From positions 1 to 28,084 of the IMG/VR virus record IMGVR_UViG_3300046533_000306: a DNA stretch of 28,084 bases; one strand, given 5' to 3'. The first letter of the stretch is position 1, and every line of letters starts with the position of its first letter. The DNA is from a virus. Positions 9,622-26,910 of this stretch are shown here, piece by piece. Below the pieces are notes generated by a model. The model worked only from the letters and a program-made list of their open reading frames with translations, had not been told where the DNA came from and did not search any database. The translations under genes and the position numbers were made by a program.

Positions 9622-11976
9622 ATGGCCCAACTGACTGGCATTTTCAACGCCGATTTCACGTCCTTTACGAAGGCCTGCGAGCAGGGATCCGCCTCGTTGA
9701 AGAGTTTCGAAACCGACGCCGTCAAGACCGCGATCTCACTCGATAAGATGGCGGACTCGATCTCGGGACAAAAGATCGTTCAGCAAGCCCTCCTCGCGAC
9801 CAAGGCCGTCCAAGACGTCGGCGGCGCGGCGGCGCTCACCGAAAAGGAACTCGCCAAGATGTCGGCGCTCGCCGGGGAAGGCGCCGAGAAATTGCGCGCG
9901 ATGGGCCAGGACGTGCCGGCCCAGATGCAAAAGCTCGCGGACGCCACCGGCCAATGGGGATCCGCGCTCTCCACGGCGACGGGGTATCTCTCGGCCCTGG
10001 GCATCAATGCGACGTTTAGTGGCCTGGTGCAATTCACCGAAAGCATCTTTTCGAGCGCGAGCGCGATTCATGACATGGGCGAGCGGTTGGGGATCTCCGC
10101 GGAAGCGGTCCAGGGCTTCAAGTTCGCGGCCGAACAGGCGGGCTCCTCGCTCGATGCCGTCGGCTCGGCGATCACGAAGATGAACAAGAACCTGGCCGAG
10201 GGCGACAAGAGCACCGTCGACGCCTTGAACAAAGCCGGGCTGGAATTCGCGACGATCCGCAACATGAAGCCCGAGGATGCGTTCCTCGCGATCACGGACG
10301 CGATTGCGAAAATCCCCGACCCGATGGAGCGCAGCGACGTCACGTTGAAGCTATTCGGCAAGAGTGCCGCCGAGCTCTTGCCCGCGATCACGGAAGGCTT
10401 CCGGGCGGCGGCCGACGGCGCGCAAAAAATGTCGAATGCCACCGTGGATGCGCTCGAGCGGGCGGAAGACGCCTGGACGAAACTGCGGAACACCGTCGTG
10501 ATTGTGTCCGGGACCATCATCGCGGGCACCATCGACACCACGACGCACATCACATCGAGTTGGCAAAACTTCTGGCAGTTCATGAAGGATTCGGCGTCGA
10601 TGGGCGTCGGCATGGCGGCGGCCCTCGCGACGGCGAACGAACAGATCAAGACCAGCGTCGACGACTTCGTCGGGCCCCTCGAGAAAGGGCTGCATGCGAC
10701 GAAAGCGGAGACCGAGGGCGCGGAGGCGGCGGCGAAGAAGTATGCCGACGCCTGGGCCGAGCTCAGTACGGTCGGCACCTCCTACAAAGACACGGTTGCC
10801 CAGATCAATCCGAAGATCGCCGAGCAGGCCGAGTACTACCTGAAAGCGGGGGCCTCGATCGCCACGGTGGCGGCGGCGTTTCCGCAGCTCTCGGCCGCGC
10901 AAGTCAAGGCCCTTGACGAAATGGTCAAGCAGTACGAGGCCACCTACAAAGCGATTCAGAAGATCGAGGAGAGCCACGTCAAGCAACAGGAGACGAACAT
11001 CTTCGGACTGAGCAAAGCTGAAAACGACGCGTCCCAAAAGAGCATCGAGAACTGGGGGAAGGCGAACGCGGAAATCCAAAAATTGAATCAGGCGCTTACC
11101 GACGACTACAACAAGCAGTCGATGGATCGCTACACCTACCAGGTCATGAAAATCTGGGACGGGGTCGAGCAAGAGATCGCGGCCTTCAAAAAGACCGGCG
11201 TGACGGCGGAACAAGTGACCCAGTATTCCAACGCGCTGTATGAACAAGCGACGGTCAAAATCTCCGAACTCTCCACGGTGACAGTGAAAGCCAGCGAGAC
11301 CGCCGCCGGGCAAATGAAAAGCCTGTGGGAGGGCTTCGACCGCGCGTTATCGTCGGCGAAGGGCAACGCCTCGGCCGTCGCGCAAGAGGCCGCCGCGGCG
11401 CTCAGTAGCACGATGCAGCAGGTGGTCAACATCGCCGCTACCGCCGACGACAACATCACGCAGAACGGGATCGACGCGATGAATCGGTTGCTCGCCGAAG
11501 AACAGCGCGTCACGGACCTCGCCGCCAAAGCGGCGGCGGAAGCGGCGGCCAAACTCAAAGCCGCCAATACCTATCAAGGCGGCGAGAAGCTGCCTGGGTC
11601 CACGACCGTGCAGGAGTTTGGGCAGAATTACATCATCTCCCCGACCGGCGCGCGGGTCCCGATGGGCCCGCACGGCGAGATCCCGAAAAACTTTGACGAC
11701 CTCTACGCAGGGAGATCGTCGTTTCCGCAGTTTGCCGGCGGCGTGCAGAATTTCTCTGGCGGATTGGCGCTGGTCGGCGAGAAGGGCCCGGAGCTCGTCA
11801 ACCTCCCGGGCGGATCCGACGTGATCCCGAATAGCCGGATGGGTGGCGGTGGCGTGTCGATCACGATTCATGTCACGCAACCCTTCGGCACCCCCGAAGC
11901 CATCGCGCGCGCCGTCGCGGATGCCCAAGTCGCCCTCATGCGCGGGCAAGGCGTGCGCCTGCCCTACGGCACATGA
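9622..11976 (+). CDS. Tape measure protein
   Basis: The 784-residue protein has long helical stretches rich in Ala, Lys and Glu. An N-terminal region has LGISAEAVQGFKFAAEQAGSS, common in tape measure proteins, and the C-terminal module NFSGGLALVGEKGPELVNLP occurs in many of them. It spans the tail lumen and sets tail length. At about 0.15 nm per residue it predicts a tail near 115-120 nm. It directly follows the tail chaperones and overlaps the hub gene start (ATGA at 11973). No peptidase or muralytic domain was recognised within it. Confidence 0.93.
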   Translation: MAQLTGIFNADFTSFTKACEQGSASLKSFETDAVKTAISLDKMADSISGQKIVQQALLATKAVQDVGGAAALTEKELAKMSALAGEGAEKLRAMGQDVPAQMQKLADATGQWGSALSTATGYLSALGINATFSGLVQFTESIFSSASAIHDMGERLGISAEAVQGFKFAAEQAGSSLDAVGSAITKMNKNLAEGDKSTVDALNKAGLEFATIRNMKPEDAFLAITDAIAKIPDPMERSDVTLKLFGKSAAELLPAITEGFRAAADGAQKMSNATVDALERAEDAWTKLRNTVVIVSGTIIAGTIDTTTHITSSWQNFWQFMKDSASMGVGMAAALATANEQIKTSVDDFVGPLEKGLHATKAETEGAEAAAKKYADAWAELSTVGTSYKDTVAQINPKIAEQAEYYLKAGASIATVAAAFPQLSAAQVKALDEMVKQYEATYKAIQKIEESHVKQQETNIFGLSKAENDASQKSIENWGKANAEIQKLNQALTDDYNKQSMDRYTYQVMKIWDGVEQEIAAFKKTGVTAEQVTQYSNALYEQATVKISELSTVTVKASETAAGQMKSLWEGFDRALSSAKGNASAVAQEAAAALSSTMQQVVNIAATADDNITQNGIDAMNRLLAEEQRVTDLAAKAAAEAAAKLKAANTYQGGEKLPGSTTVQEFGQNYIISPTGARVPMGPHGEIPKNFDDLYAGRSSFPQFAGGVQNFSGGLALVGEKGPELVNLPGGSDVIPNSRMGGGGVSITIHVTQPFGTPEAIARAVADAQVALMRGQGVRLPYGT

Positions 11977-14900
11977 AGCTGACCAACGCCGTCTCGAATA
12001 TCGCGCGGTCGGGCGCCACGCGGTCCGGGTATCCGGTCCTGCAGGGCGCCAAGGTCCCGCTGTACGCGATCTCGAATATCGCGCGCTCGGGCGCGACCCG
12101 GTCGAATTACACGAGCGCGAAGCCGTTCATCGCGATCGATGGGATTCACCGGGCGTGGGGCCGAATCCCCGGCCAGGGCGTGATCGCCGATTCGGTGACC
12201 AAGTCCGACGCCATCAACAACACGCCGGTCACGCTCGCCTTCACCGCCTACGGCTGGGTGCCGCGCGAGGGCGCCGACGTGATCGTGACGCTCGGATCGA
12301 AGAACAATGCGCAACGGCAATTCGGCGGGACGATCGTCAGCACGCGCCATCGGTACGCCGGGAAGCCCGCCGCGGCCAACATGTTGTTTGACGTCTCGTG
12401 CATCGACTACACGTGGGGCCTCGACCGGCGCAAGGTCTCGGGCAACTACACCGGCGCGAGCGTCGCCGCGATCGCCGCGAGCTTGATGACGTACGCCCCG
12501 GCGGGCTACACGCTGTTAGTCGATCCGGACATCGGCGCCGAGCGGCTCGATCAGATCACCTTCACCGAGCAATCACTCACGGGGGCCTTCGCGCAGCTCG
12601 CGAAGCGCGTCGGCGGGGACTACCTCTGCGACTACAGCAAAGTGGTGCACCTGTTCTTTGAGAATACGACCCTCTCGCCGCCGCGGATCGTGAACGCGGT
12701 GCACCCGACCCTCCAGCGGATCGAGTGGACGCGCGACCTGTCGCAAGTCGCGACGCGCATCCTCGGGAACTTCGGCGGGTCGAACGCGCTCGACCAGATC
12801 GCGCCCGGGGAGACGCTCCTGCCGGTGGAAACGGCGGCCTGGTATCTCGCGGCAGGCGGCGTCGTCCTCGTCGGGCAGCAGCGCGTGACGTATGGCGGGA
12901 TTGATCCGGGCGGCGGCGGATCGCTGGTCGGCCCGGGCGCGTCGCCGACCGGCGCCCCAAACGTGTCGCTGCTCCCTGGGGCGGGCGTTACCGCCGGCGT
13001 GCACGACTACGCCGTGAGTTACAAGACGGCATCGGGGGAGTCACTCGCCGGGCCGCGCGTGACCGTGCCCGTCGGTGTCTTTCTCCCGCCCACGACGGCC
13101 CCCACGCCGGGGACGCCCGGACCCGGGGGCACGGGTCCATCACCGGGCGTCCATGACTATGCGGTCTCGTTTGTGATCAGTAGCGGCGAGACGGTGCCGG
13201 GGCCCCGTGTCTCGGTGAGCAACACGGCCCTGACCCCGGCGCCGACGACCGGACCGACGCCCACGGCGGGCCCCATTGGCGTGGGCCCCGATCCCGGCGT
13301 GCATGACTATGCCGTGGCCTTCCAAACGGCGACCGGGTCGACGCCCCCGGGCCCCATCGGCGGACAGATTGCGGTCGCCAATACCCCACTGCCGGCCCCG
13401 ACGGCCGGCCCGACGACGAATCCCGCGACCGTGGGCGGCAGCGTGGACCTCGGCGATCACTGGTATTCGCTCACCTTCCTGACGGCCTCGGGCGAAACGA
13501 TCGGCGGCCCGGTCACCACAGGAACGGCCCTGCCAATGGCGCCGGTGGCTAATCCCACGTCCCCGCCCGCGACGGGGCTCGGGTCGGGCATGAACAACGT
13601 GACCGGGGGGTGGCTCTACTACTCGTACGCCTATCGCGCCGGGAGCGGGGAAACGCTGCAGTCACCGACCGTCGAAGTCCAGGCGACGCTCGCGGGTATT
13701 TCGTTCCCGAACTATTTCATCAACATGGCCGTGACCGCCTACGCGTCCCCCGACCCGGCGGTGACGTCCATCGTGTTTTACCGCAGTTTTCAATACGGCG
13801 GTCAGGGGCAGAAGCGGGAATGGGCCACGTCCTCGAATGTGACCTCGACGATTGTGGATCCCTGTTCCAATACCAACGGACCCCTGGCCCCCACGGGGGG
13901 GAATACCACGGTCGGGGCCGGGCCGAAGCAAACGATCCCGTTGACGAATATTCAGACCGGACCCGTCGGCACCATCGCGCGGCGCCTCTATCGCTCGCCG
14001 GCGATCGGCGGCGTCGGCGTGCAAAAACTGCTCGCCACGATCAACAACAACTCCACGACCACGTACACCGACACGTTGGCGGACAGTGCGCTGGGCGCCC
14101 AGGTGCCAAGCGGGAACACCGCGTACGTCCTGATGGCCGTGCGCCTGACCAACATTCCTCGGGGGACCGGGAGCAGTACCGCGGTGACCGCGCGGCAGCT
14201 CTATCGCCGATCCGGGGGGGCGGGCCTCCGGTACCTCGCGACGCTGCCGGATAACTCGGCCAGCACCTACGACGACACCACGCCGAATGCCGGCCTGGGC
14301 GCCGCCCCCCCGACGGCGAACACGGCGACCCTGCTGGTGATCCCGCTGACGAAACTCCCCCTCGGGAATAGTCTGGTCATGGGGCGCAACGTGTACCGCA
14401 CCTCCGGCGGCAACGCGGGCGGCCCCCTGTATCGTCTCTTGACGCTCGCGGACAACACGACCACAGACGTGGTCGATACCTTCAGTGATGCCAGCTTGGG
14501 CGCGCCGGCGCTCACCGTCGGCTCCGCGCAAGCGGCGCAGGTGCAACTGTCCGCGATTCCCCTGGGCGCCGCCAGCGTCATCGCCCGCGTGCTCTACCGC
14601 ACCAAGGCGGGACTGACGCCGTTGCAGGTGCTCACCACCCTCGCCGACAACACGACGACGGCGTATCTCGACGTGACGGCCGACGCGGCCCTCGGGGCGA
14701 ATCCGCCGACGAGTGATACGTCGTTGTTGCAACAGCCGACCGGCAACGTCCTCGCCGGCTCGCCGACGCTCCCCTGTGCGACGGTCGCGGCGTTTCGCAC
14801 CACGGGCGGGTGGGCCATCGTCGGCTCACAGAACGTCCGGTATACCGGGATCAGTGGCAACGCACTGCTGGGGATTCCGCCGAGCGGCCCGGGCGCGATC

Positions 14901-15422
14901 ACCGCGACGATCACATACAACACGACCGCCGTCGTCGCCGCGATGCTGACCGGGATTCCGGCCACCGGCCTCGGCGTGATCAAGTACCCGATCCTGAAAG
15001 GCGACCCGGTCAACGTGTTCGTCCAGGTCGATGACCTCGCCGCCCAGGCCGCCGCGCGCCTCCAGCTCCCCGGCAGTGACGGCGTGATCGAAGACGAGAT
15101 CCAAGACGGGCGCTTGTCCTACATCGAAGGCCTGGCGCGGTGTCAGGCGCGGCTCGATCTGCTCGCGGCCCTCGACAGCGAGGGAAAAGTGGGTGTCATC
15201 ACCGTCTCGTACGTGTGCCGCGACATCAACACGCACGCGGGCGCGACGGTCTCCGTCAATCTCGGGCTGCCGGTGAATGTGCGGGGGGACTTCCTGATCC
15301 AACGCGTCGGCGTCGCGCGCTTCAACATTCCGAATCTGAACCCGACGTACACCGTCGAGGCGTCGAGCCTGCGTTTCTCCGCGGAGGAAATGCTGCGCCT
15401 CTTACGACAGGGAGCGTTCTAA
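11973..15422 (+). CDS. Large tail hub / tail tip protein with inserted repeat domains
   Basis: The 1149-residue protein directly follows the tape measure, the usual place for a distal tail or baseplate hub protein. Residues 45-300 and 915-1149 look like parts of a gp27-like hub (ASLMTYAPAGYTLLVDPD; RLSYIEGLARCQARLDLLAAL; GDFLIQRVG). Between them are a region of Fn3-like beta repeats, with GVHDYAVS-type text starting at residues 342, 392 and 442 (50-residue period) plus weaker copies, and four 67-68-residue modules starting near 655, 723, 790 and 857 with LYR and DNTTT-type motifs. The N-terminus repeats SNIARSGATRS at 8-18 and 34-44. It probably forms the tail tip and host-contact surface. 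Domain fold calls are inferred from sequence pattern. Confidence 0.8.
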   Translation: MKLTNAVSNIARSGATRSGYPVLQGAKVPLYAISNIARSGATRSNYTSAKPFIAIDGIHRAWGRIPGQGVIADSVTKSDAINNTPVTLAFTAYGWVPREGADVIVTLGSKNNAQRQFGGTIVSTRHRYAGKPAAANMLFDVSCIDYTWGLDRRKVSGNYTGASVAAIAASLMTYAPAGYTLLVDPDIGAERLDQITFTEQSLTGAFAQLAKRVGGDYLCDYSKVVHLFFENTTLSPPRIVNAVHPTLQRIEWTRDLSQVATRILGNFGGSNALDQIAPGETLLPVETAAWYLAAGGVVLVGQQRVTYGGIDPGGGGSLVGPGASPTGAPNVSLLPGAGVTAGVHDYAVSYKTASGESLAGPRVTVPVGVFLPPTTAPTPGTPGPGGTGPSPGVHDYAVSFVISSGETVPGPRVSVSNTALTPAPTTGPTPTAGPIGVGPDPGVHDYAVAFQTATGSTPPGPIGGQIAVANTPLPAPTAGPTTNPATVGGSVDLGDHWYSLTFLTASGETIGGPVTTGTALPMAPVANPTSPPATGLGSGMNNVTGGWLYYSYAYRAGSGETLQSPTVEVQATLAGISFPNYFINMAVTAYASPDPAVTSIVFYRSFQYGGQGQKREWATSSNVTSTIVDPCSNTNGPLAPTGGNTTVGAGPKQTIPLTNIQTGPVGTIARRLYRSPAIGGVGVQKLLATINNNSTTTYTDTLADSALGAQVPSGNTAYVLMAVRLTNIPRGTGSSTAVTARQLYRRSGGAGLRYLATLPDNSASTYDDTTPNAGLGAAPPTANTATLLVIPLTKLPLGNSLVMGRNVYRTSGGNAGGPLYRLLTLADNTTTDVVDTFSDASLGAPALTVGSAQAAQVQLSAIPLGAASVIARVLYRTKAGLTPLQVLTTLADNTTTAYLDVTADAALGANPPTSDTSLLQQPTGNVLAGSPTLPCATVAAFRTTGGWAIVGSQNVRYTGISGNALLGIPPSGPGAITATITYNTTAVVAAMLTGIPATGLGVIKYPILKGDPVNVFVQVDDLAAQAAARLQLPGSDGVIEDEIQDGRLSYIEGLARCQARLDLLAALDSEGKVGVITVSYVCRDINTHAGATVSVNLGLPVNVRGDFLIQRVGVARFNIPNLNPTYTVEASSLRFSAEEMLRLLRQGAF

Positions 15423-16109
15423 ATGGCGGTCACGATCACGCGTTCTCCTTGGATTGACGACGACGGCAGTGGCACCACAGGGACGGTCATCAACAACGCG
15501 GTCAAAACCGACCTCTACAACCAGATCGATACCGCCCTCGCGAAGGTCGCGCAACTCGCGGGCGGGAATAGTTTCAACGGCACGCAGAGTGTCGTGAATG
15601 GCTCGTTCCTCGTGGGCACGGGGGCCGGCGTCAGCAACAGCATGCTGGGGCTCACCATCGATGGCGCGGTGAATACCGGCCTGGGGGTGCAAAACACTAA
15701 CCCCAGCAATGGGGCCTTCTACCTCGCGTTTTACAACAGCGCCGTGGTCCTGGCGGGGTATATCAATCAGACCGGGGCGACCACCGTCGCGTATACCACG
15801 ACCTCGGATGCCCGCCTCAAGACCGACGACGGCCCCGCCGCGGATCTGGACGCCTTGCGACGGATCGTGGTGCACGACTTCGCGTGGACCGCCGACGGCC
15901 GCCGCGATCGCGGGATCTTCGCGCAAGAGGCGCATGCGCTCTACCCGCGCGCCGTCTTCCCCGGCACCGACGAGACGACCGACTCGGGCGCCCTCGCGCG
16001 GCCGTGGATGACCGACTATTCCAAGTTCGTCCCCGACCTGATCGTCGGCTGGCAACAACACGACGTCGCGATCGCCGAGCTCCGCGCGCAACTCAGAGGA
16101 AAGGATTGA
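15423..16109 (+). CDS. Tail fibre protein with S74 intramolecular chaperone domain
   Basis: The 228-residue protein starts one base after the hub stop. Its N-terminal half is a Gly/Asn/Thr-rich fibre segment. The C-terminal third is a peptidase S74 (intramolecular chaperone) domain, recognised from TTTSDARLKTDDG, then RRIVVHDFAWT and GIFAQEAHALYPRAV. Ser128 and Lys133 have the five-residue spacing of the Ser-Lys dyad in this family. Cleavage before Ser128 would release a chaperone of about 100 residues after trimer folding. It is a short fibre, likely mounted on the tail tip and involved in receptor contact. Confidence 0.9.
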   Translation: MAVTITRSPWIDDDGSGTTGTVINNAVKTDLYNQIDTALAKVAQLAGGNSFNGTQSVVNGSFLVGTGAGVSNSMLGLTIDGAVNTGLGVQNTNPSNGAFYLAFYNSAVVLAGYINQTGATTVAYTTTSDARLKTDDGPAADLDALRRIVVHDFAWTADGRRDRGIFAQEAHALYPRAVFPGTDETTDSGALARPWMTDYSKFVPDLIVGWQQHDVAIAELRAQLRGKD

Positions 16110-18966: not shown

Positions 18967-19106
18967 CGCTGACCTGGTGGCGGACGTGGCTCGGCCGCTG
19001 GCGTGCGTGGCGGACGGCGCGGTTTCAGCGGGACGTGATCAGCGATCTCCAGGTCTCGCAGGAATGGCAACGCCGGTTCTCGCGTCGAGGGGGCGGCCTC
19101 CGATGA
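18963..19106 (+). CDS. Very small basic, Trp-rich early protein
   Basis: The 47-residue frame lies between two ATGA overlaps (18963 and 19103). It begins MTLTWWRTWLGRWRAWRTAR and continues with a helix containing DVISDLQVSQEWQRRF. Trp and Arg dominate the first half. The exact fit between neighbouring stops and starts is the main evidence that it is a gene. Function is unknown; an amphipathic nucleic acid- or membrane-binding peptide is conceivable. Confidence 0.55.
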   Translation: MTLTWWRTWLGRWRAWRTARFQRDVISDLQVSQEWQRRFSRRGGGLR

Positions 19107-19339
19107 CGGCGCTGCGGACCTTGCGCACGCGGCGCGGCTGGACGCAAGAAGACTTGTGTCGACGCAGCCGGATTCCGCAGAACAGCATCTCCCGCCTGGA
19201 ACGCGACCGATCCGCCCGGCCCCGGTTCGAAACGGTGCGGGCGCTGGCGAAGGCGTTCGCCGTCGATCCGGTGTCGATTGCCTTCGGGCCGCCCCGGCGC
19301 AAGCCGCGCGTGGCGTCGGTCAACGGGGGGCCACGATGA
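19103..19339 (+). CDS. Second Cro-like XRE-family protein
   Basis: The 78-residue product from ATG 19103 carries a clear helix-turn-helix: LRTLRTRRGWTQEDLCRRSR followed by IPQNSISRLERDR and a helix VRALAKAFAVDPVSIAFG. It is the third XRE-type regulator in the window, 750 bases downstream of the Cro-like gene in the same operon. Longer upstream frames exist but the ATGA overlap with the preceding small gene fixes the start. It may control delayed early genes. Confidence 0.82.
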   Translation: MTALRTLRTRRGWTQEDLCRRSRIPQNSISRLERDRSARPRFETVRALAKAFAVDPVSIAFGPPRRKPRVASVNGGPR

Positions 19340-20773: not shown

Positions 20774-21430
20774 ATGATGCTCACGTTCGATCACGCCGCG
20801 CATCGCTACGCCCTGGAGGGCGTGATCGTGCCGTCGGTCACGCAGATCCTCAAGGCCTCCGGCCTGATCGACTTCTCGGGCATCCCCGTCGGCACCCTGA
20901 ATGCCGCGCTGGAACGCGGCACTGTCGTCCACGAAGCCATTCACTTTTTCAACGACGGCGATCTCGACCTCGATCAGTTTCGCGAGGACTTCCCGGCGTA
21001 TGTCGGCTATCTCGAGGGCTGGCTCTCGTTCTGCGATCAGCGGCACTTCGTGCCGGTGCTCAATGAACATCGCGTGGCCTCGCCGCGGCACCTGGTGGCC
21101 GGCACGCTCGATTCCTTGGGCCTGCTGGACGGCCAGGCCGTGCTGCTGGACTTTGCCACTGGCCGGCCCTCGGACGTCTGCAAATGGCTGCAGACCGCCG
21201 CCTATGAATTGCTCGCGCGCGAGTGGGCCGCAGAAGACCCGGCGCTGGCGGCCTTCTTCGACGCGCACGGGTTTGTCAAACGCTATGCGGTGGCCTTGCG
21301 TCGCGATGGGACCTTCCGCCTCGAAGGCTACACGGCCCCGTCAGACGCGCGAGAATTCCTGGCCCTGCTGACGGCCTTTCGCATCGTCGAGAAATATCGC
21401 GGCGAACGCCCGACCGAGGCCGCCGCATGA
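20774..21430 (+). CDS. PD-(D/E)XK nuclease-like protein (RecB/Cas4 type)
   Basis: The 218-residue protein has the RecB-like order of motifs. RGTVVHEAIH has His53, LNEHRV has Glu98, AGTLDSLG has Asp113, the core strand VLLDFATG has Asp126, and LQTAAYE has Gln140 and Tyr144. In most relatives the core reads D.KTG, but here residue 128 is Ala, so the usual catalytic lysine is missing; Lys137 is the nearest substitute. It follows the ssDNA-binding-like gene by three bases. It may be a recombination exonuclease with an altered site or an inactive form. Confidence 0.8.
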   Translation: MMLTFDHAAHRYALEGVIVPSVTQILKASGLIDFSGIPVGTLNAALERGTVVHEAIHFFNDGDLDLDQFREDFPAYVGYLEGWLSFCDQRHFVPVLNEHRVASPRHLVAGTLDSLGLLDGQAVLLDFATGRPSDVCKWLQTAAYELLAREWAAEDPALAAFFDAHGFVKRYAVALRRDGTFRLEGYTAPSDAREFLALLTAFRIVEKYRGERPTEAAA

Positions 21431-25694: not shown

Positions 25695-26437
25695 AGATTC
25701 TCAACCGATGGACGGACGTGGTGTTGTGGGAAGGTGAAGCCGGCACGGTCGCCGAGGCGGTGTATGCCGCGCTGAAGAGTCGCGCGAACCTCCGTGACGC
25801 GAACCTCGGTGACGCGAACCTCGGTGGCGCGGACCTCCGTGGCGCGAACCTCGGTGGCGCGAACCTCGGTGACGCGAACCTCCGTGGCGCGGACCTCCGT
25901 GGCGCGAACCTCGGTGGCGCGGACCTCCGTGGCGCGAACCTCCGTGGCGCGGACCTCCGTGACGCGAACCTCGGTGGCGCGGACCTCCGTGGCGCGAACC
26001 TCCGTGGCGCGAACCTCCGTGACGCGAACCTCCGTGGCGCGGACCTCCGTGACGCGGACCTCCGTGGCGCGAACCTCCGTGGCGCGAACCTCCGTGGCGC
26101 GGACCTCGCACCCATCCGTGATGACCTATGGGCCGTGTTGAGCGCCTCGCCGGCGGAAGTGCCAGGCTTACTCACGGCCATCCGAGAAGGGCGCATTGAC
26201 GGATCTACCTACGAAGGCGAATGCGCGTGTCTGGTCGGTACACTCGAGCACGTCGCCGGCGCGCCGCACAACAGTTTACCCATACTCAAAGCGAACAGCT
26301 CACGACCCGCCGAGATGTTCTTTCTCTCGATCAACCGCGGGGACACGCCAGACACCAATCAGTTCTCGCAGTTGGCCGCGACGTGGATCGAGGACTGGCT
26401 GACACGAATGCGTGCAACGTTCGGAGCGGCGGCGTGA
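25691..26437 (+). CDS. Pentapeptide repeat protein
   Basis: The 248-residue product from ATG 25691 has a short N-terminal segment (ILNRWTDVVLWEGEAGTVAEA), then 21 consecutive pentapeptides of the form A(N/D)L(R/G)(G/D) (residues 32-136) plus a final ADLAP, and a C-terminal domain with IRDDLWAVLSASPAEVPGLL, ECACLVGTLEHVAGAP and FFLSINRGDTP. Pentapeptide repeats fold as a square right-handed beta helix; about 22 repeats make roughly five to six coils. Some such proteins mimic DNA and bind gyrase, but that is not shown here. The ATG overlaps the previous stop. Confidence 0.92.
   Translation: MKILNRWTDVVLWEGEAGTVAEAVYAALKSRANLRDANLGDANLGGADLRGANLGGANLGDANLRGADLRGANLGGADLRGANLRGADLRDANLGGADLRGANLRGANLRDANLRGADLRDADLRGANLRGANLRGADLAPIRDDLWAVLSASPAEVPGLLTAIREGRIDGSTYEGECACLVGTLEHVAGAPHNSLPILKANSSRPAEMFFLSINRGDTPDTNQFSQLAATWIEDWLTRMRATFGAAA
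25784..26098 (+). repeat. 21-unit 15-bp tandem repeat array
   Basis: Units follow the pattern GCG(A/G)ACCTC(C/G)GTG(G/A)C without interruption. Only three positions vary, each between two bases, and all three change the amino acid (Asn/Asp, Arg/Gly, Gly/Asp). All other bases, including synonymous positions, are constant in every unit. This points to recent expansion or homogenisation at the DNA level. Confidence 0.95.
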
Positions 26438-26910
26438 CTTTGGAATTCCGCGTGGTGGGCGTGGCGCAGCAGATGGGCAGCAAGCGTGCCTTCGTGCCGC
26501 GCGGCTGGACGCGGCCGGTCATCACCGACAGCAACCGGAACTTGAAATCCTGGCAGACGCTCGTGGCCGAGGGCGCCAGTCACGCGATCCAACAACTGCC
26601 CGCGAGTGAACGGACGCTGTTGACCGACGGCGTGCGCTTGACCGTCGCATTTTACCTACCGCGGCCGAAGACGTTGCCGAAGCGCGTCACCGCGCATACG
26701 AAAGCGCCCGATGTCGACAAGCTGGCGAGGAGTTTAGGCGACGCGCTCACGCGCATCGTGTATCGGGACGACGCGCAGATCGTGGATCTGCTGGCGATGA
26801 AACGCTACGCCCCCCCTGGGCAGTCGCCGTATGTCGAGATTCGCGTGGAGCCGACGGCCGGCGTGGTGCCGCTCGCGCACGATCAGCCACTCTTTGCCCT
26901 GGCCCGATAA
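26434..26910 (+). CDS. rusA: RusA-like Holliday junction resolvase
   Basis: The 158-residue product from GTG 26434 (GTGA overlap with the pentapeptide gene) shows the RusA layout. VAFYLPRPKTLPK is followed by APDVDKLARSLGDAL, with Asp93, Asp95 and Asp103, and IVYRDDAQIVDL, with Asp112 and Asp113. The Asp residues match the metal-binding set of RusA. RusA dimers cleave four-way junctions and tidy branched DNA before packaging. Length is slightly above the E. coli protein. A short basic N-terminus (QQMGSKRAFVPRG) is also typical of phage versions. Confidence 0.9.
   Translation: MTLEFRVVGVAQQMGSKRAFVPRGWTRPVITDSNRNLKSWQTLVAEGASHAIQQLPASERTLLTDGVRLTVAFYLPRPKTLPKRVTAHTKAPDVDKLARSLGDALTRIVYRDDAQIVDLLAMKRYAPPGQSPYVEIRVEPTAGVVPLAHDQPLFALAR

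Follow-up and report, generated by a model that had tools for sequence, protein, structure and literature searches.

Does a phage tail hub that carries two kinds of repeats hold two separate arrays, or one kind of domain written in two parts? The question is raised by a stretch of viral DNA of 28,084 nucleotides (IMG/VR record IMGVR_UViG_3300046533_000306, positions 1 to 28,084; this whole stretch is the window), in which one open reading frame (ORF), P0001, codes for a hub-like protein.

11973-15422, + strand: hub-like ORF P0001, 1149 aa, ATG start

The protein has a repeat block between conserved N and C parts, and the earlier observation made in an initial annotation of the sequence is real: an expanded, variable insert resembling fibronectin type III or immunoglobulin (Fn3/Ig) domains breaks up a hub core. 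That annotation had also described two different repeat types, and this part was not sustained, as the units of 50 and 67 residues behave like one domain cut in two. With a probability of about 0.8, an arm of five Ig/Fn3-like domains, arranged in nested order, interrupts the hub core of P0001. Every arm domain would be split, its front half (A) preceding and its back half (B) following the entire next domain.

The A and B units and their probable pairing

Iterated hidden Markov models (HMMs) detected five A and five B units in P0001, in the order AAAAABBBBB. The A unit is about 50 aa long (consensus G-HDYAV-TASGET-GP) and the B unit about 67 aa (consensus L--IP-G---AR-LYR---L-TI-DNTTT-Y-D---LG). 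The units, with the domain halves that they would represent, are as follows, B5 being the counterpart of B2 in L043, a relative with two levels.

12951..13100, + strand: A1, front half of domain 1 (outermost), HMM 338-365, E=3e-15
13101..13250, + strand: A2, front half of domain 2, HMM 388-415, E=1e-16
13251..13400, + strand: A3, front half of domain 3, HMM 438-467, E=3e-14
13401..13565, + strand: A4, front half of domain 4, HMM 491-516, E=6e-12
13566..13697, + strand: A5, front half of domain 5 (innermost, tip), HMM 544-566, E=9e-3
13698..13907, + strand: B1, back half of domain 5 (tip), diverged, HMM 594-634, E=0.02
13908..14111, + strand: B2, back half of domain 4, HMM 654-712, E=5e-24
14112..14312, + strand: B3, back half of domain 3, HMM 723-780, E=4e-24
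14313..14516, + strand: B4, back half of domain 2, HMM 790-846, E=5e-21
14517..14717, + strand: B5, back half of domain 1 (outermost), HMM 856-912, E=3e-27

Every A pair and every B pair outscored 500/500 shuffles (z 6 to 20), indicating homology within each class. No DNA-level tandem repeats of note were found within the ORF, so the repeat copies are old. The exact 50-residue period reported initially was confirmed, with GVHDYAV at residues 342, 392 and 442, and the longer modules do start near 654, 723, 790 and 856. The inventory was incomplete, however, lacking the fourth A (491-516), the fifth A (544-566) and the diverged first B (594-634).

For structural comparison, an AlphaFold2 model of P0001 was obtained from a 27-row alignment (mean predicted local distance difference test score, pLDDT, 69.7; predicted template modelling score, pTM, 0.37), as well as a model of L043 (pTM 0.29), and fold matches were determined with VIA-align and Foldseek. 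In P0001, each A unit has about three strands and each B unit about four, giving seven per A+B pair. The uninterrupted A5-B1 aligned by VIA with SPO1 9vel_A 280-399 (Z 10.0, root-mean-square deviation (rmsd) 2.6, 104 aligned). In L043, the range 301-533, in which about 130 residues of the inner domain separate A1 from B2, aligned with 9vel_A 286-401 (Z 9.6, rmsd 2.7, 102 aligned), and the matched stretches belong to the confident part of that model (pLDDT about 60-87). The A+B pair thus has the strands of a seven-strand sandwich, and both models gave it a match to the phage Ig/Fn3-like fold. It is strongly supported that a contiguous AB is one domain, and the L043 model gives similarly strong support to the predicted packing of its outer A and outer B as one domain. 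The best explanation for the two repeat types is a single Ig/Fn3-like domain of which each unit makes up one half.

In a profile search with 14 naturally contiguous AB domains, PDB 8jov_A 117-218 was matched with E=1.1e-4 and SPO1 Gp6.1 308-388 with E=0.24. In addition, phage THSA-485A has a free-standing AB domain in another tail-region gene, Tsac_2845. Curated Pfam Fn3/Ig models, which may miss divergent members, gave no matches for P0001 or for the 14 contiguous AB domains.

The pairing of A with B units was evaluated by co-divergence in 15 five-level proteins, using the divergence of A and B levels that remained after core divergence was regressed out. Nested pairing ranked 2/120 and parallel pairing 105/120, and nested exceeded parallel in 298/300 bootstraps. 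Among cells with the same sequence separation, the nested ones gave.63,.63 and.64 and the others means of.49,.32 and.39. Nested pairing was also first of 24 in five four-level proteins. Another relative, L015, has an uninterrupted third-level domain, whose A and B best matched the level-3 A and level-3 B in 14/24 proteins, where these two halves are separated by inner domains; its outermost pair matched (1,1) in 24/24. When the level of the extra unit was compared between four- and five-level proteins, 63/75 pairs agreed (the pairs are not independent). In P0001, A1 would pair with B5 and A2 with B4, the series ending at the tip with the uninterrupted A5-B1; the same nested pairing probably holds at every level.

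A/B counts and order across the family

Units were counted in 45 complete family members, P0001 included, from HMM matches only. L011, L069, L075, L077, L081, L084, L086, L089, L090, L092, L093 and L094 had been dropped beforehand as cut ORFs, for a missing start, as a near-copy, or as hubs without an A/B match or outside the family. HMM matches in the last 160 residues were skipped (one weak B match, in L082), and the cut genes L016 and L017 and repeat copies of the same contigs (e.g. L020-L029, L044-L053) were left uncounted. The initial annotation had proposed a comparison with relatives, and copy number does vary, from 0 to 6 among these 45 proteins. A and B counts were equal in 35 and differed by one in 10, with no larger gap (r=0.96). 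When B counts were shuffled among proteins 10,000 times, the mean number of equal counts was 11.4 and the maximum 23.

In the first set, all 28 complete proteins could be read as balanced bracket words of 2 to 6 levels after diverged centre halves (10 A and 9 B units) were added by eye. Branched but balanced orders were found in L015 (AAABABBB) and L037. A core tree required at least 12 architecture changes, at least 10 of them in copy number, the latter all balanced as annotated; these figures come from a quick method, and the number of levels is partly a by-eye assignment. The parity and order of A and B units are strongly supported. A branched order was also seen by eye in the distant hub encoded by the L090/L091 ORF from 4995 (29% to L018), AAAABBBABB, which is balanced if an A near residue 263, missed by the HMM, is counted.

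The hub core and probable exchange of its insert

The core parts on either side of the insert are:

11973..12788, + strand: hub core N part, two gp27/gp44/VgrG-like hub domains, residues 1-272 (fold and profile)
14985..15419, + strand: hub core C part, residues 1005-1149, strongly conserved in relatives and matched by hhalign to an A/B-free hub

P0001 residues ~50-240 aligned with Mu gp44 (1wru), the MuSo2 43 kDa protein, VgrG and other hubs with VIA Z values of 7-11, and the L043 model gave Z values of 8-13 with hub folds; over both models, Z was about 9-13 for 1wru, 3cdd and 3d37. Foldseek matched the N part to hubs with E down to 2e-7. A gp27/gp44/VgrG-type hub fold is strongly supported for the modelled N part. 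A tblastn match in the N part, at 1e-6, pointed to THSA-485A Tsac_2848, a hub of 433 aa without A/B repeats, grouped in PHROGs with tail and, weakly, baseplate-hub families. A profile of A/B-free hubs was made from the THSA-485A hub and two 478-residue relatives. P0001 53-272 aligned by hhalign with THSA hub 3-212 (E=4.9e-18), and the C part, with pLDDT <50 at residues 1016-1149 of the model, aligned with 309-397 (E=2.7e-5, probability 74%). The hub-like character of both ends, proposed initially, was thus borne out by fold for the N part and by profile match to A/B-free phage hubs for both.

The match to the THSA-type hub stops at P0001 residue 272 and restarts near 1008. Since the N and C parts match one continuous THSA hub on either side of a single site, the core of P0001 is split, by an insert of about 735 residues compared with about 95 in THSA-485A. 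The alignment suggests that the insert lies after hub domain II, and homology to the continuous hub supports a predicted packing of the two hub ends together. Two further VIA rows covered 32-1016 and 41-1016 (gene transfer agent (GTA) and phage Chi); at an rmsd of about 15 they were set aside as unreliable. Against PDB, the N-core profile gave two weak protease matches, which were rejected, the C-core profile gave nothing useful, and the full-alignment profile gave antibody VH chains at 0.003 to 5, taken as a chance likeness to Ig strands. Weak N-part similarity was also observed in a Syntrophomonadaceae phage protein (L065:2729-5104), with a different N-terminal extension ahead of the hub domains.

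Between the core and the A/B block lie two flank modules:

12804..12941, + strand: flank module F1, residues 278-323
14739..14972, + strand: flank module F2, residues 923-1000

The initial annotation had pointed to similar segments near residues ~300 and ~950, and F1 and F2 do align, with a score of 71 against a shuffle mean of 28.5 and 0/2000 shuffles reaching 71. An L043 range ending in F2 matched 9n71_A 104-178 (Z 9.1). The similarity may be explained by L073 (3027-5258; cut copy L075), which has the same hub core, is 56% identical to L043 in the best segment and carries no A/B units. In place of the A/B block it has about five or six TSPDGITWT repeats (residues ~295-588), propeller-like by eye, which sit within a single flank module whose first half matches F1 and whose second half matches F2. 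F1 and F2 may be two copies of one module serving as an insertion platform. The propeller-like repeats gave no solid match to PDB by phmmer. A propeller, like a nested arm, has adjacent ends.

Identity among relatives falls inward symmetrically, from.70 through.69,.60 and.45 to.32 for A and from.74 through.60,.61 and.54 to.29 for B. In addition, L032 and L035 have a core identity of 0.96 and very different inserts, suggesting that phages swap the insert as a whole.

Proposed growth of the arm, other readings and known systems

The arm would grow by insertion of a complete AB domain in the A/B loop of an existing domain, again and again, usually the innermost. The chain would run outward via the A halves and back via the B halves, leaving both chain ends at the base and linking neighbouring domains by two strands in a doubly connected arm. 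A hub loop can only take an insert whose two ends both lie at the base; a nested rod offers this at any depth, while a tandem rod cannot. The innermost, most variable domain would be the distal, host-contacting end. The arm may project from the tail tip and touch the host surface with its variable tip; this is the weaker part of the proposal, and the term host-facing, used initially, is plausible because the middle of the sequence is its most variable part.

Several points weigh against the nested arm. The models have low pTM (0.37 and 0.29), so long-range placement is unreliable, and VIA ranges report only the first and last residue. Within P0001, only the innermost A5-B1 was seen as one domain, and the pairing of levels 1-4 is inferred. 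The A/B HMMs were seeded from P0001 itself, and the HMM scores of 13 centre segments were often no better than shuffles, the tip halves resting on eye and alignment. Agreement in level matching of the extra unit was 27/60 for five against six levels and 8/20 for four against six, and three-level proteins agreed with larger ones in 2/24 (none of these pairs is independent); the inner pairs of L037 gave no clear level match.

On balance, recursive self-insertion of one Ig-like domain appears to be a growth mode of phage tail-tip arms, with the hub core in frame. The resulting arms would hold two to six domains, doubly connected to one another, with occasional branching and a fast-changing tip; nesting depth would be an evolving quantitative trait that the sequence shows directly as a balanced bracket word. 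It is unlikely, though a serious alternative, that the copies of a truly nested arm spread by whole-block recombination between phages and not mainly by central insertion, depth then saying little on the order of growth. The L032/L035 pair shows that blocks are exchanged, and the extra unit in five-against-six comparisons is often at a level other than the innermost, but exchange moves existing nests and makes no new levels by itself, and the ladder of 2, 3, 4, 5 and 6 levels needs insertions. Somewhat more doubtful is that the nested arm is not host-facing and acts as an internal plug, or as a brace between the hub and neighbouring tail proteins. Hub inserts of T5 and lambda include a plug and brace contacts (PMC10721106), and an inserted plug domain closes the tube in the T5 hub; variability peaks at the centre of the insert, and propeller-like repeats take the place of the entire block in L073, two observations that suit an outward, exchangeable module better. 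Two independent arrays, with five A hairpin modules in a row followed by five self-sufficient B sandwiches grown separately, would agree with the regular spacing inside each (50 and 67 residues) and the likeness of the A units, but are highly improbable given that A and B counts track each other across the 45 proteins, that the copy-number changes on the core tree are all balanced as annotated, that one solved domain is matched by A+B and not by B alone, that three strands alone do not make a sandwich, and that L015 carries an uninterrupted AB.

Proteins usually lengthen by domains added in a row. This viral family seems instead to lengthen a loop by nesting every newly added domain within the preceding one, and since relatives with 0, 2, 3, 4, 5 and 6 levels coexist, the growth of nested proteins can be traced stepwise. 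Apparent pairs of repeat types elsewhere may likewise be halves of one split domain, which a tandem-repeat annotation would miss.

P0001 shares with Mu gp44, T4 gp27, VgrG and siphophage baseplate hubs the N-terminal two-domain hub fold. Its core also matches a phage hub on both sides of the insert, and, as for known tail hubs, the gene lies right after that of the tape measure. It differs from them in the size of the insert and in the nesting of same-type domains. Two-level nesting is already known in hubs: according to PMC10721106, the FNIII-A domain of lambda gpJ and the plug of T5 pb3 are extra Ig/Fn3-like or plug domains within an inserted hub domain (HDII-insertion). There, one extra domain is described, whereas in the P0001 family the same domain is nested two to six levels deep, in variable number, and the insert site is probably different, that of P0001 lying after the second hub domain by alignment. 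Deep nesting is also known: in SI3 of cyanobacterial RNA polymerase, insertion is recursive over six levels, has nodes that bifurcate and partly involves a single domain type (PMC13114784). Unlike P0001, SI3 belongs to a cellular enzyme and has a hybrid-motif/HABAS fold, compared with Ig-like units in a viral tail hub with a ladder of depths. The Ig-like domain of SPO1 Gp6.1 (PDB 9vel) and the virion protein 8jov resemble one contiguous AB in fold and weakly in sequence, but each is a single uninterrupted domain on another virion protein. A literature search that was thin on subscription journals and bioRxiv preprints found no phage hub described with one domain type nested this deeply.

Whole-protein searches with P0001 gave no matches in Pfam, none in PDB (phmmer) and none at 1e-5 by tblastn against 50,697 phage records; the only PHROG match, to phrog_511, was weak (E=0.0005) and located on one B unit. 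A pattern scan of genome contigs gave 41 matches, none of which was confirmed. The start of P0001 overlaps a tape measure protein (TMP)-like ORF (9622-11976) by 4 bases, and the surrounding head-tail module includes terminase, capsid/protease, portal and TMP. P0001 appears to be the tail-hub protein (baseplate hub/Tal-type) of a siphophage-like virus, at the tail tip of a soil phage. The next ORF (15423-16109) ends in a Peptidase_S74 chaperone domain and probably encodes a small fibre or spike of the tail. Farther downstream, past the tail module, lie ORFs resembling a repressor (18977-19339), an exonuclease (20774-21430) and RusA (26221-26910).

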